NCBI GenBank assembly: GCA_002284855.1
Contig: CP015603.1
Coordinates: 744,001-808,000, forward strand
DNA from: Actinobacteria bacterium IMCC25003
GTDB lineage: Bacteria; Actinomycetota; Actinomycetes; Nanopelagicales; Nanopelagicaceae
Length of the DNA: 64,000 nucleotides
Direction: 5' to 3'
Notes under the pieces: generated by a model
What the model saw: only the letters and a program-made list of their open reading frames with translations
The model's database searches: none
Told to the model about the DNA's origin: nothing
Translations under genes and position numbers: made by a program
Shown here: in pieces, positions 37,513 through 42,470 of the stretch
Layout: every line of letters begins with the position of its first letter
Numbering within the stretch: position 1 is the first letter of the stretch

Positions 37513-37559
37513 GTTCCTATTGTCATGCGTTTGGGTTCGCCACGGCAACCCGACGCGAG

Positions 37560-37572
37560 TATCCTTAAGCAC
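37560..37572 (+). promoter_or_regulatory. Leaderless -10 element, erpA-like gene
   Basis: TATCCT at 37560-37565, 7 bases, then ATG 37573. Confidence 0.5.
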
Positions 37573-37935
37573 ATGACTACTGAAACAACATCAACTCCAG
37601 TCGAAATCACAACAGGCATCACACTTACTGATGTCGCAGCCGCAAAGGTTGCAGCGCTTCTTGCTCAAGAAGGCCGCGATGACCTCTACCTTCGCGTTGC
37701 TGTTCAGCCAGGAGGCTGCTCAGGTCTTCGTTACCAGCTCTACTTTGATGATCGCAATCAAGATGGCGATATCACACGTGAATTTGGCGCGGTCAAGGTT
37801 GTCGTCGACAAGATGAGCGATCCATACCTTATGGGAGCCTCTATTGATTTCGTAGACACTATTGAGAAGCAGGGCTTCACAATTGATAATCCAAATGCAC
37901 AGGGTTCATGTGCATGCGGCGATTCATTTAACTAA
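37573..37935 (+). CDS. erpA: A-type iron-sulfur cluster insertion protein (HesB/ErpA)
   Basis: This 120-residue A-type carrier has its three cluster-binding cysteines in PGGCSGL and the C-terminal CACGDSFN. The core VDKMSDPYLMGASIDFVD is typical. Start ATG 37573 (leaderless) trims an upstream frame that begins inside the divergent nadA region. It likely delivers Fe-S clusters to targets such as NadA, whose gene is divergent 60 bases away, and LipA. It precedes the adenosine kinase gene by 38 bases, as in mycobacteria where a HesB gene lies near adoK. Confidence 0.92.
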   Translation: MTTETTSTPVEITTGITLTDVAAAKVAALLAQEGRDDLYLRVAVQPGGCSGLRYQLYFDDRNQDGDITREFGAVKVVVDKMSDPYLMGASIDFVDTIEKQGFTIDNPNAQGSCACGDSFN

Positions 37936-37973: not shown

Positions 37974-38951
37974 ATGAAAATTGGCGTTGCTGGTTCTGTT
38001 GGTCTTGATCACTTGATGACTTTCCCTGGAAAGTTCACCGACTCACTTGTCGCTGGTTCTCTTGAAAAGGTTTCCCTCTCCTTTCTTGTTGATGGACTAG
38101 ATGTACGTCGTGGGGGATGTGCAGCAAATATCGCCTTCGGTCTTGGCGTTCTTGGCCTGAACCCGATTTTGATTGCTGCTGTAGGTAAGGATTTTGCTGA
38201 TTACGATGCTTGGCTTTCTCGTCATGGCGTTGATACATCGCACGCTCTTGTTTCAACGACGCAGCACACGGCCCACTTCACAGTCACAACAGATACAGAG
38301 CTCAATCAGATTGCATCTTTCTTTCCTGGTGCAATGTCTGAAGCTCGCAATATCGAACTCAAACCGATCATGGATAAGGTCGGAAAACTCGACCTCTTAG
38401 TGGTCTCACCAGATGATCCCGAAGCGATGCTCCGCCACACAGAGGTTGCCCAGGCGATGGGCGTTGCCGTTGCTGCCGATCCATCTCAACAGATGGCTCG
38501 TATGAGCGGAGAAGAGATTAAGAAACTTATTTCTGGCGCGACCTATCTCTTTATGAATGAGTACGAACTTGCTCTTGCTATTCAAAAGACAGGGTGGAGC
38601 GATCACGAAATTCTGGAACGAGTGAAATATCGAGTTGTAACACTCGGCGCGGATGGTGCACGCATTGAAAGTATCGATGGAACTTTTATCAAAGTTGGTT
38701 GCGCACAAGAGAAGGCGAAGATTGATCCGACCGGAGTCGGAGACTCATTCCGCTCTGGATTTGTAGCTGGACTTGCCTGGGGACTTTCGCATGAACGATG
38801 CGCGCAGCTTGGCTCGATGATTGCAACGTATGTCATCGAAACGACGGGCACTCAGGAATATAGATTTACCAAAGATGAATTTGTGAGCCGATTTAGCGAG
38901 GCTTACGGTGCAGATGCTGCCGCTGAAATAGCAGCACACCTACCTGCGTAA
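37974..38951 (+). CDS. adoK: Adenosine kinase (PfkB family, mycobacterial type)
   Basis: 325 residues. It matches mycobacterial AdoK from memory over the whole length, with shared stretches such as VSLSFLVD, FADYDAWL, SFFPGAMSEARNIEL, ADPSQQMARMSGEEI and STGTQE-like ETTGTQEYRF. The PfkB C-terminal signature DPTGVGDSFRSGF contains the catalytic Asp and anion hole. It phosphorylates adenosine to AMP for purine salvage. The close similarity supports this over ribokinase or fructokinase. Its end overlaps the convergent aminotransferase-fold gene by 12 bases. Confidence 0.92.
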   Translation: MKIGVAGSVGLDHLMTFPGKFTDSLVAGSLEKVSLSFLVDGLDVRRGGCAANIAFGLGVLGLNPILIAAVGKDFADYDAWLSRHGVDTSHALVSTTQHTAHFTVTTDTELNQIASFFPGAMSEARNIELKPIMDKVGKLDLLVVSPDDPEAMLRHTEVAQAMGVAVAADPSQQMARMSGEEIKKLISGATYLFMNEYELALAIQKTGWSDHEILERVKYRVVTLGADGARIESIDGTFIKVGCAQEKAKIDPTGVGDSFRSGFVAGLAWGLSHERCAQLGSMIATYVIETTGTQEYRFTKDEFVSRFSEAYGADAAAEIAAHLPA

Positions 38952-40019
38952 CTTCTGAAGAGTTCCTCTTAAGGTATTTATCAGCGCGGATATATCTTCT
39001 CGGGTTGTACCGCTATGAAGAGTAAAGCGAATATGGCCATCAGTCTCATATCCCATTGCGGCAAGAACATGGCTGGGCTGTAGATCTTCAGCTGAGCAGG
39101 CAGAGCCTGAATCGACATCGAAGCCAAGCGAGGCTAACTCTCGGACTGTGGCTTCACCAGAGACTCCCGCGGCCACAATAGAAATGAGATGTGGAAGTGA
39201 AGCAGTATTGGGGGCAACTACTTCAACACCATCGATGGTCAATAGTTGAGCGATTGCATATTCACGGAGTCCCAAATCTTCACTCGTGAAATTATCGAGA
39301 GCAATGGATGAAGCGATAAGTAATGGCAACGAATAACTTCCGGGAGAGCTGATTGGCGCGATACGGGGAAGTGGGTAGGAAAATTCAGAGCGATTCTTGA
39401 TCGCCATAATGGCAAGGCCACTTGGTCCATTCCACGACAGTGAGTCGAAGAGCGCGGTGTTCCAGTGATGAGGTAAAGGTAAGCGAGCGCCTGAAGTTGT
39501 GGCATCAACTGCTACGCGAACTGAGGTAGGAATTTCGAGTGCACTTTGAATCACGCCAGTTTCGCCATTTGCCAATTGCAGCGAGAGGACGGAGTGTTCG
39601 GGAATTTCTTCGAGATTGAGAATAGCGCCCACCTTATTTGCAGGAAGTTCGATGACGTGGGCGGTGTGGGCACGGGCGATGGCTCGAACCTTTCCTTTAT
39701 CGATTGCTGCATATGCAAAAGGGGAGCGATCGGTAAAGAGTCCAGTTATCGAGAGGAAGTGGCCTAGAGAGGGTTCACCGAGGACTTCGATAGATGTTGC
39801 AGGAAGACCTAATTTCTCCGCGATATTTTCAACTGCCTGATTTCGAAGGATGGCAGCCTTGGAGGCGCTCTGTGAAATCTTCTTAGGATCTGCCCAACCC
39901 TGGTCGAAAGCGGCTAAAAGCGCCTCTCTGGCGGCAGGGTGGAGCGCGCTTTCAGAGGCGAAATTTCCTGTGACACGAACCACCGAATCAACGCTACTCG
40001 CTCGGACGAGCGCATGCAC
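38940..40019 (-). CDS. Degenerate cysteine-desulfurase-fold (class V aminotransferase-like) protein
   Basis: This 359-residue protein has the NifS/IscS overall pattern, most clearly at the C-terminus, where the active-site loop keeps Cys308 in SGSACSAEDLQPSHVL and ends with IRFTLHSGTT. The PLP site is gone. The DAAQ motif reads DATT (172-175), and the SxHKxxGPKG segment that holds the PLP lysine reads SLSWNGPSG (193-201) with no Lys. The N-terminal TSGATE and EH motifs are also missing. It is probably not a PLP enzyme. It starts at GTG, divergent from ctaC by 22 bases. Role unknown; a link to cytochrome oxidase assembly is speculation from position. Confidence 0.75.
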   Translation of the reverse strand: MHALVRASSVDSVVRVTGNFASESALHPAAREALLAAFDQGWADPKKISQSASKAAILRNQAVENIAEKLGLPATSIEVLGEPSLGHFLSITGLFTDRSPFAYAAIDKGKVRAIARAHTAHVIELPANKVGAILNLEEIPEHSVLSLQLANGETGVIQSALEIPTSVRVAVDATTSGARLPLPHHWNTALFDSLSWNGPSGLAIMAIKNRSEFSYPLPRIAPISSPGSYSLPLLIASSIALDNFTSEDLGLREYAIAQLLTIDGVEVVAPNTASLPHLISIVAAGVSGEATVRELASLGFDVDSGSACSAEDLQPSHVLAAMGYETDGHIRFTLHSGTTREDISALINTLRGTLQKLRR

Positions 40020-40029
40020 CTTGCGCCAC

Positions 40030-40041
40030 TATCCTTAGGCC
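40030..40041 (+). promoter_or_regulatory. ctaC: Leaderless -10 element, ctaC
   Basis: TATCCT at 40030-40035, 6 bases, then ATG 40042. Confidence 0.5.
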
Positions 40042-40812
40042 ATGTCCAATCATGCTCCGCGCTCAAAGCGCACTGTTGCAGCTGTGGCGTTAATACTGCC
40101 CGCACTACTTCTCTTATCAGGATGCTCCTTCAACTCGAAGGATATCTCTGGGATGGGCTTCCCTAAGGGAGTAACCAGCGTCAATGACATCTCACTCTCT
40201 TTGTGGCAGGGCGCATGGATTGCAGCAGGAGTTGTTGGCGTCTTCACCTTTATCTTGATTATCTGGCCAGCGATCTTCCATCGCGCCAAGGTTGGCAAAG
40301 GTGAATTTCCAAAGCAGACCCAGTACAACATTCCCGTTGAAATTCTTTACACGGTGATTCCTTTTGTGATTGTTGCAGTCCTTTTCTACTTTACTGCCAT
40401 TAAAGAGAACAAGATCATTGATAAGACTTCTCCGGTAAAGCATGAGATTTCCGTTGAAGGTATTCAGTGGTCTTGGCAGTTCGGCTATCCCGAAGCAGGG
40501 GATAAGGCGATTGTCACTGGCACGCCTGCGCAACCGCCAACTCTGTACATGCCTCTTGGCGAGAAGGTCCGTTTCACTCTCACCGCAAATGATGTGGTTC
40601 ATGGTTTCTGGATTCCAGCGTTCATGATTCAGATGCAGAACCTTCCCGGAGAGACAAACCACTTGCAATTCACTGCAAACAAATTGGGTGAATTCCCAGG
40701 TCGTTGCAACATCCTCTGCGGACGAAACCACTCACAGATGATTTTTAAAGTAAAAGTTGTAACCCCCGAGCAGTATCAGAAATATCTTGACTCACTGAAG
40801 GCGAGCGCATAA
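40042..40812 (+). CDS. ctaC: Cytochrome c oxidase subunit II
   Basis: This 256-residue CuA-bearing subunit accepts electrons for the aa3 oxidase. A lipoprotein signal peptide ends at LLSGC; two transmembrane helices follow ([18 protein letters not shown] and a second near residue 105), then the cupredoxin domain with [10 protein letters not shown]. The CuA loop reads [14 protein letters not shown]: Cys222, Cys226, His230 and Met233 are kept, but the usual Glu two places after the first Cys is Ile224. That Glu normally also binds Mg2+ at the subunit I/II interface. It is the first gene of a ctaC-ctaD-ctaF operon. Confidence 0.94.
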
Positions 40813-42470
40813 TGACAACATTTGCAGAACGTCCAACTATCGCTGCACCTCGCCAGGGAGTTCAAAAGACTTCCCGCGGAAACCAATTTGTAAAGACCAT
40901 TACCTCTACCGATCACAAGCGCATCGGTTATCTATACCTAGCAACCTCATTTGCCTGGTTCCTCATCGGTGGTCTCTTGGCGCTGCTTCTGCGCATCGAA
41001 CTGACTCGTCCAGGTATGCAGTTCTGGAGCAATGAGCAGTACAACCAGCTCTTCACAATGCACGGAACCATCATGTTGCTGATGTTTGCAACGCCGCTCT
41101 TCGTTGGCTTTGCCAACGTCATCATGCCACTTCAAATCGGTGCAGCAGATGTGGCTTTCCCGCGTTTGAACATGCTCTCTTACTGGCTCTACTTCTTCGG
41201 CTCCATCGAAGCCACAATCGGTTTCTTAACTCCTGGTGGAGCAGCTTCATTCGGTTGGACTGCCTACGCACCACTTGCTAACTCAACTTACTCACCGGGT
41301 ATCGGTGGAGATCTCTGGGTGATGGGCCTTACAATTTCAGGACTCGGAACAATTCTGGGTGGCGTTAACTTCATTACAACAATCTTCACTATGCGTGCGC
41401 CAGGTATGACGATGTTTCGCATGTCAATCTTTTCTTGGAACGTCCTGCTTACATCGATCCTTGTACTTCTTGCCTTCCCTCCATTAGCTGCTGCTCTTCT
41501 TGGACTTGAGTCAGATCGACTCTTCGGTACACACATCTTTGATCCAGCAAATGGTGGGGCGATGCTGTGGCAGCACCTCTTCTGGTTCTTCGGCCATCCC
41601 GAGGTTTATATCCTTGCGCTCCCATTCTTCGGAATCGCAACAGAAATTTTGCCAGTCTTCAGCCGTAAACCAATCTTTGGTTACAAGGGATTGATCGCAG
41701 CAACTATTGCAATCTCAGCTTTATCTGTTGCCGTGTGGGCACACCACATGTTTGCATCAGGAAAGGTTTTGCTCCCGTTCTTCTCATTTATGACATTCCT
41801 TATCGGAGTGCCGACAGGCGTGAAGTTCTTCAACTGGATCGGAACAATGTGGCGCGGCCATGTCACCTTCGAAACACCGATGTTGTGGGTCATGGGCTTC
41901 CTCGTAACATTCCTCTTCGGTGGACTTACTGGAATCATCCTTGCTTCACCACCACTTGATTTTGCAGTCTCTGCCTCTTATTTTGTGGTTGCACACTTCC
42001 ACTACGTTCTCTTCGGAACTGTGGTCTTTGCAATGTTCGCAGGTTTCTACTTCTGGTGGCCTAAGTTCACAGGCCGCATGCTCAATGAGCGCCTTGGAAA
42101 GATCCACTTCTGGACTCTCTTCTTCGGCTTCCACACAACCTTCCTTATCCAGCACTGGCTTGGAATTAAGGGATTCCCACGTCGCTATGCAGATTATTTA
42201 GCAACTGATGGATTTACCGGAATGAATATGATTTCAACAGTAGGTTCGTTCTTGCTTGCTCTCTCGATGATTCCATTCTTCGTCAACGTCTGGATTACTC
42301 GTAAGTCTCCAAAAGTTGAAGTTGATGATCCATGGGGTTACGGGGCATCACTCGAATGGGCGACATCATGTCCTCCGCCACGCCACAACTTCACATCTAT
42401 GCCGCGCATTCGCTCTGAGCGACCTGCCTTTGATCTCCACCATCCACACATCAAGACAGAAGGTCACTAA
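40812..42470 (+). CDS. ctaD: Cytochrome c oxidase subunit I
   Basis: This 552-residue heme-copper oxidase core subunit has twelve membrane helices. The low-spin heme His is in [12 protein letters not shown], the CuB His and cross-linked Tyr in [12 protein letters not shown], the CuB His pair in WAHHMFASG, the K-channel region in [20 protein letters not shown], and the heme a3/a ligands in [11 protein letters not shown]. It is the A-type aa3 form. It overlaps ctaC by one base (TAATG). Its C-terminal tail [13 protein letters not shown] is typical of actinobacteria. Confidence 0.97.

Follow-up and report, generated by a model that had tools for sequence, protein, structure and literature searches.

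Genes at the locus

The window, a stretch of 64,000 nucleotides from the genome of Actinobacteria bacterium IMCC25003 (contig CP015603.1), encodes on its minus strand a protein that we call a pseudo-desulfurase. As first annotated, the gene extends over 38940..40019 (minus strand; 359 codons plus stop, GTG start), and its reading frame is unbroken, as the sequence-only reading of this DNA had stated. The flanking genes considered here all lie on the plus strand. These are erpA (37525..37935; start uncertain), whose product is the sole A-type Fe-S carrier found in the genome; a gene named pfkB-family kinase from its sequence (37974..38951), which is convergent with the pseudo-desulfurase gene and overlaps it by 12 bases; ctaC, encoding cytochrome oxidase subunit II (40042..40812), in which a CuA motif was recognized by eye; and ctaD, encoding oxidase subunit I (40812..42470). 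At 37525-37600 the erpA ORF, as listed, runs over the start listed for nadA on the opposite strand, and the start of one or both genes probably lies further downstream.

The pseudo-desulfurase itself also seems to start later than annotated. Because two relatives, L015 and L022, have no open frame before residue 13, residues 1-23 are disordered in the AlphaFold model, and the motif TAGCGT is conserved 7 bases before a GTG at 39983 in 11 aligned upstream regions, we think that this GTG is the true start, that the gene is leaderless, and that the likelier coding extent is 38940..39983 (minus strand), yielding a protein of 347 residues. The gene had been described as divergent from ctaC by 22 bases; the divergent arrangement stands, but some 58 bases probably separate the two start codons. 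The DNA between these starts (39960-40045) is strongly conserved (TAAGGATAGTGG and TAGCGT), which suggests two putative leaderless promoters placed back to back.

The order erpA-pfkB-[gene, opposite strand]-ctaC-ctaD recurs across the class. Of 185 family loci, a total in which a genome fetched repeatedly counts each time, 180 have a ctaC match; none was found at L121, L149, L156, L159, and L189; at L187 the gene order differs.

Fold and family assignment

Pfam Aminotran_5 matches residues 237-346 only (38.9 bits); the predicted fold reaches beyond this part and spans the whole IscS fold. The AlphaFold model, built from an alignment of 24 relatives, has a mean pLDDT of 83.4, and apart from the N-terminus it is disordered at residues 219-226 and in the Cys loop (305-313). 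Foldseek and VIA-align 2 place the model on IscS, NFS1, and Archaeoglobus fulgidus IscS, with Z scores of about 34-35 and rmsd values of 2.3-2.7 over 329-338 residues (E. coli IscS 3lvm_B, Z 34.7; A. fulgidus IscS 4hvk, Z 34.5). As modelled, the protein has the IscS-type fold of the PLP-dependent cysteine desulfurases (IscS/NifS). None of the NCBIfam desulfurase cut-offs was reached, the best match being TIGR03402 with 66.3 bits against a cut-off of 530.75 bits. PADLOC matched the family to DndA and SspA, which is to be expected for relatives of NifS. The gene belongs to a second, NifS-like actinobacterial family that adjoins ctaC. Automatic annotation would call such proteins cysteine desulfurase or aminotransferase class V, and labels of this kind would lead models of sulfur metabolism astray for the acI actinobacteria, which are abundant in fresh water.

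The PLP site is largely dismantled and the loop cysteine is kept

We aligned 156 distinct family members together with the genome's own IscS-like protein (L002). The members came from automatically returned loci, to which a class-wide sample of 40 hand-picked regions was added; duplicates, identical ORFs, paralogues, and six short ORFs (L053, L063, L064, L066, L121, and L159) were dropped before counting. The label Nanopelagicaceae was read from named relatives (Candidatus Planktophila and Candidatus Nanopelagicaceae).

In the alignment with L002, the column of the PLP Schiff-base lysine (IscS Lys206) holds Ser195 in the window protein (codon 39435..39437, minus strand). The adjacent Trp196 corresponds to the conserved Trp of the family motif HKWGGP and not to the lysine column. 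The sequence-only reading had deduced the absence of the lysine from a motif string; the alignment now assigns the residue, and neither L002 nor the ctaC-adjacent homologues bring another lysine into the PLP position. The residues that we take to contact the phosphate and ring of PLP are mostly replaced as well: IscS Thr76, His104, Gln183, Ser203, and His205 correspond to Ser84, Lys108, Thr175, Asp192, and Leu194. This bears out both the proposed change from DAAQ to DATT and the loss of the N-terminal PLP-contact motifs, where the Thr of the GTEA type has become Ser84 and the ring-stacking His has become Lys108.

These replacements are widespread in the 82 Nanopelagicaceae rows. At the position of the phosphate-binding Ser203 (Asp192; codon 39444..39446, minus strand) 75 rows have Asp, and at that of His104 (Lys108; codon 39696..39698, minus strand) 80 rows have a basic residue, the composition being 56 Arg, 24 Lys, 1 Leu, and 1 Val. 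The Thr of GTEA is retained by few if any of them. The equivalents of IscS Asn155 and Asp180 (Asn151 and Asp172) are retained in all 82. Among the 58 rows that contain the lysine, the His104 and Ser203 positions are invariably His and Ser. A conserved replacement lysine was not found in the alignment, in which Lys exceeds a frequency of 0.4 only at columns 46 and 47, distant in sequence from the site. Lys108 was considered as a substitute PLP lysine and rejected, as it sits at the stacking-His site, where Arg is commoner. With no lysine in place and most contacts to PLP replaced, Schiff-base PLP chemistry, as judged from the alignment, cannot occur in the window protein.

The loop cysteine shows the opposite pattern, and its retention, already noticed in the earlier reading, extends to the whole family. 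Cys308 (IscS Cys328; codon 39096..39098, minus strand) is the only cysteine of the protein and corresponds to the catalytic loop cysteine of IscS/NifS. This position is Cys in 156 of 156 rows, including all 82 from Nanopelagicaceae and all 16 lysine-less rows from elsewhere, and the loop around it is flexible in the model. The Cys loop and the following PSHVLAAMG helix (residues 303-324; 39048..39113, minus strand) form the most conserved region, with a mean column conservation of 0.81 in Nanopelagicaceae versus 0.48-0.59 in four other regions. In three members from genus g29 (L117, L119, and L120) the N-terminus is shortened or unrelated and the Trp of SW-GP is replaced by Phe; their Cys loop is intact.

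Distribution, selection, and origin of the lysine-less state

The lysine is present in 58 rows and absent from 98, the latter comprising all 82 Nanopelagicaceae and 16 from other groups. The loss is complete in Nanopelagicaceae as sampled, where the column holds 63 Ser, 14 Ala, 3 Thr, 1 Leu, and 1 Ile; the 16 other lysine-less rows have 8 Asp, 4 Ser, 2 Ala, 1 Gly, and 1 Met. Since lysine-containing and lysine-less members share the same place in the genome, they are positional orthologues.

The family search (E value of 1e-15 or better) found the gene in 173 of 201 genomes. The only genus in that search to lack it, g28, is represented by a genome that is 85% complete. In the window's genus, at least 20 genomes with and at least 20 without the gene were counted among the matches listed, and 8 further genomes had no match. 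In all seven lacking genomes of this genus that were examined, ctaC comes straight after pfkB, so that the deletion is a clean one. The gene is therefore dispensable in those members of the genus that have lost it in this way. Where present, the gene is, by dN/dS, under purifying selection: the ratio ranges from 0.089 (window protein versus L039) to 0.219 over 21 pairs of seven close relatives, with several dS values above 1.5 and saturated. We rejected an artefact or pseudogene in view of the intact frame, the family-wide relatives, and dN/dS values of 0.09-0.22. One genome that is 86% complete (G071) has two divergent lysine-less copies (L110 and L122) on different contigs, which may reflect contamination of the bin.

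The number of times that the lysine was lost was addressed with trees of the gene and of its neighbors; the 57-row and 55-row trees were hand-picked subsets of the 156 rows. On the gene's own tree, the lysine state needs 7 changes in a quick reconstruction (87 rows) and 6 in a careful one (57 rows; bootstrap range 6-7), and a single lysine-less origin is not rejected by the AU test on the gene tree (p 0.331). The tree of ctaC plus ctaD from 55 of the same loci requires at least 6 changes, 4 of them forced by well-supported branches, and rejects one lysine-less clade (AU p 2e-6). As the neighbor tree rejects one origin, repeated loss of the lysine is favored if inheritance at this conserved locus was vertical. 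In the Cellulomonas-type members L067, L068, and L181, the His104 position is Arg and the Ser203 position is Asp; this pocket swap, the same as that of Nanopelagicaceae, looks convergent.

Other desulfurases and possible partners in the genome

The genome encodes two ordinary desulfurases, SufS (L001) and the IscS-like protein L002, whose gene adjoins mnmA. Both keep the lysine within a canonical SGHK motif. Among 20 genomes sampled (19 from the window's genus and one other), the IscS-like paralogue has both Lys and Cys in all. Because the IscS-like paralogue and SufS are canonical, desulfuration is provided elsewhere in the genome and the loss of the lysine is particular to the ctaC-linked gene. 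No IscU-type partner is known in this genome: its one NifU_N protein is SufU, encoded in the suf operon, and the NifU C-terminal domain had no match in the genome. The candidate partners are this SufU and ErpA, the A-type carrier encoded two genes away.

Proposed function and alternatives

We favor the view that the protein is a pseudo-desulfurase that has kept the fold and whose loop thiol takes part in Fe-S assembly or transfer, either by ligating a cluster or by accepting a persulfide, and we rank this reading ahead of the alternatives considered below while holding it tentatively, as a proposal by analogy that falls somewhat short of probable. Cys308 would still be presented by the flexible loop and would act without PLP, binding a cluster or receiving persulfide on a protein that is an Fe-S scaffold or carrier. 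The model for this role is the lysine-less A. fulgidus IscS, which ligates a [2Fe-2S] cluster on IscU. SufS and the IscS-like protein would supply the sulfur, with SufU or ErpA, encoded nearby, as the partner. Against this reading stand the lack of a known IscU-type partner, the clean losses in the window's genus, and the gene's own tree, on which a single lysine-less origin is not rejected. The suggestion that the scaffold had been repurposed for a role without PLP is well supported by the family-wide loss of the lysine, the missing replacement lysine, purifying selection, and the invariant cysteine; its companion, sulfur handling, is possible.

The presence of active paralogues in the same genome and the conserved docking loop would also suit a regulatory partner, an inactive subunit or competitor that tunes sulfur flow through association with L002 or its acceptors. 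That class-V desulfurases are dimers also speaks for it. The identity to L002 is only about 25% over 326 residues, which makes hetero-dimers doubtful, and we regard regulation as unlikely. Retention of the ring contacts Asn151 and Asp172 in every Nanopelagicaceae row would instead suit PLP bound without a Schiff base, with a slow desulfurase or other PLP activity kept, and a figure legend in PMC9769115 names PLP in the lysine-less A. fulgidus structure 4EB5. In contrast, the phosphate-site Ser and the stacking His are replaced in most rows, the GTEA Thr has nearly or entirely disappeared, and the Lys108 of the window protein is Arg in other members; residual PLP binding is thus more doubtful still.

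A chaperone role at the CuA site of CtaC, for copper or thiols and with Cys308 as metal ligand, would account for a gene that is divergent from ctaC across the class. This adjacency was the whole case for the copper handling raised in the sequence-only reading, and it is common to the lysine-containing members, which occupy the same place. The seven genomes of the window's genus that lack the gene keep both ctaC and ctaD. Moreover, the protein is cytoplasmic, judging from the lack of a signal peptide by eye, whereas CuA is built outside the membrane, and it has a single Cys and no CxxC. The copper role was not upheld by these comparisons, and we consider it improbable. Decay of a functionless gene, in which chance or the fold alone preserved the Cys motif, could explain why part of the window's genus has clean deletions and why conservation is lower outside the loop. 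It is difficult to reconcile with low dN/dS over 21 pairs, even with several dS values saturated, with a cysteine that never varies, and with genes that are intact in genera across the family, and it is the least credible of these readings.

Beyond the window protein, the ancestral job of the ctaC-linked family may have been independent of PLP, the loop thiol being the part under selection, so that the lysine was shed repeatedly and the cysteine in no member seen; we offer this as a possibility, on the doubtful side. If true, scaffolds that offer a thiol without PLP, for the transfer of Fe-S or sulfur, would be a general class among desulfurase-fold proteins. The family is a natural experiment that parts two functions of one enzyme, PLP-dependent sulfur production and the display of a thiol by a mobile loop. 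Should the loop be all that is selected in several lineages, an idea derived from one archaeal protein, a cluster ligand without desulfuration, would become a testable and widespread bacterial strategy.

Comparison with known systems

The closest known counterpart is A. fulgidus IscS (PDB 4EB5, 4EB7, and 4HVK; D199K form 4R5F), on which the primary papers are reportedly those of Marinoni 2012, Yamanaka 2013, and Pagnier 2014. Its chains are the nearest solved sequences by phmmer and are among the top fold matches, and the two proteins share the IscS fold, the replaced lysine, and the loop cysteine. According to a passage in PMC7585200, A. fulgidus IscS has no desulfurase activity, its essential lysine being an aspartate, and supplies a cysteine ligand to the [2Fe-2S] cluster of IscU; a passage in PMC9769115 names this ligand as Cys321, alongside three Cys of IscU. 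The two proteins also differ. The lysine is replaced by Asp in A. fulgidus IscS and by Ser in the window protein; the former is archaeal with IscU as its partner, whereas the window genome has only SufU as a U-type protein; and PLP is named for 4EB5, whereas the window protein has lost most PLP contacts and is encoded beside ctaC. IscS1 of Methanosarcina acetivorans, also archaeal and likened here by description, is another without the catalytic lysine and is suggested, in the same passage of PMC7585200, to act like A. fulgidus IscS.

Within the genome, L002 and L001 have the class-V fold in common with the window protein, and L002 has the same type of loop; the paralogues carry the canonical SGHK that the window protein lacks. 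A bacterial counterpart is the group of lysine-containing NifS-like proteins encoded next to ctaC in other Actinomycetia, such as P0002 from L033, which have the same locus and the same loop, are orthologous by position, and match the NCBIfam NifS model best, below its cut-off. All 58 of their rows retain Lys, His104, and Ser203, none of which the window protein has. The literature searched held no report of a ctaC-linked or lysine-less actinobacterial desulfurase. Lysine-less proteins with the desulfurase fold are already known from archaea; new, within the searches made, is an actinobacterial family in which the lysine seems to have been lost in several lineages and the loop cysteine in none.
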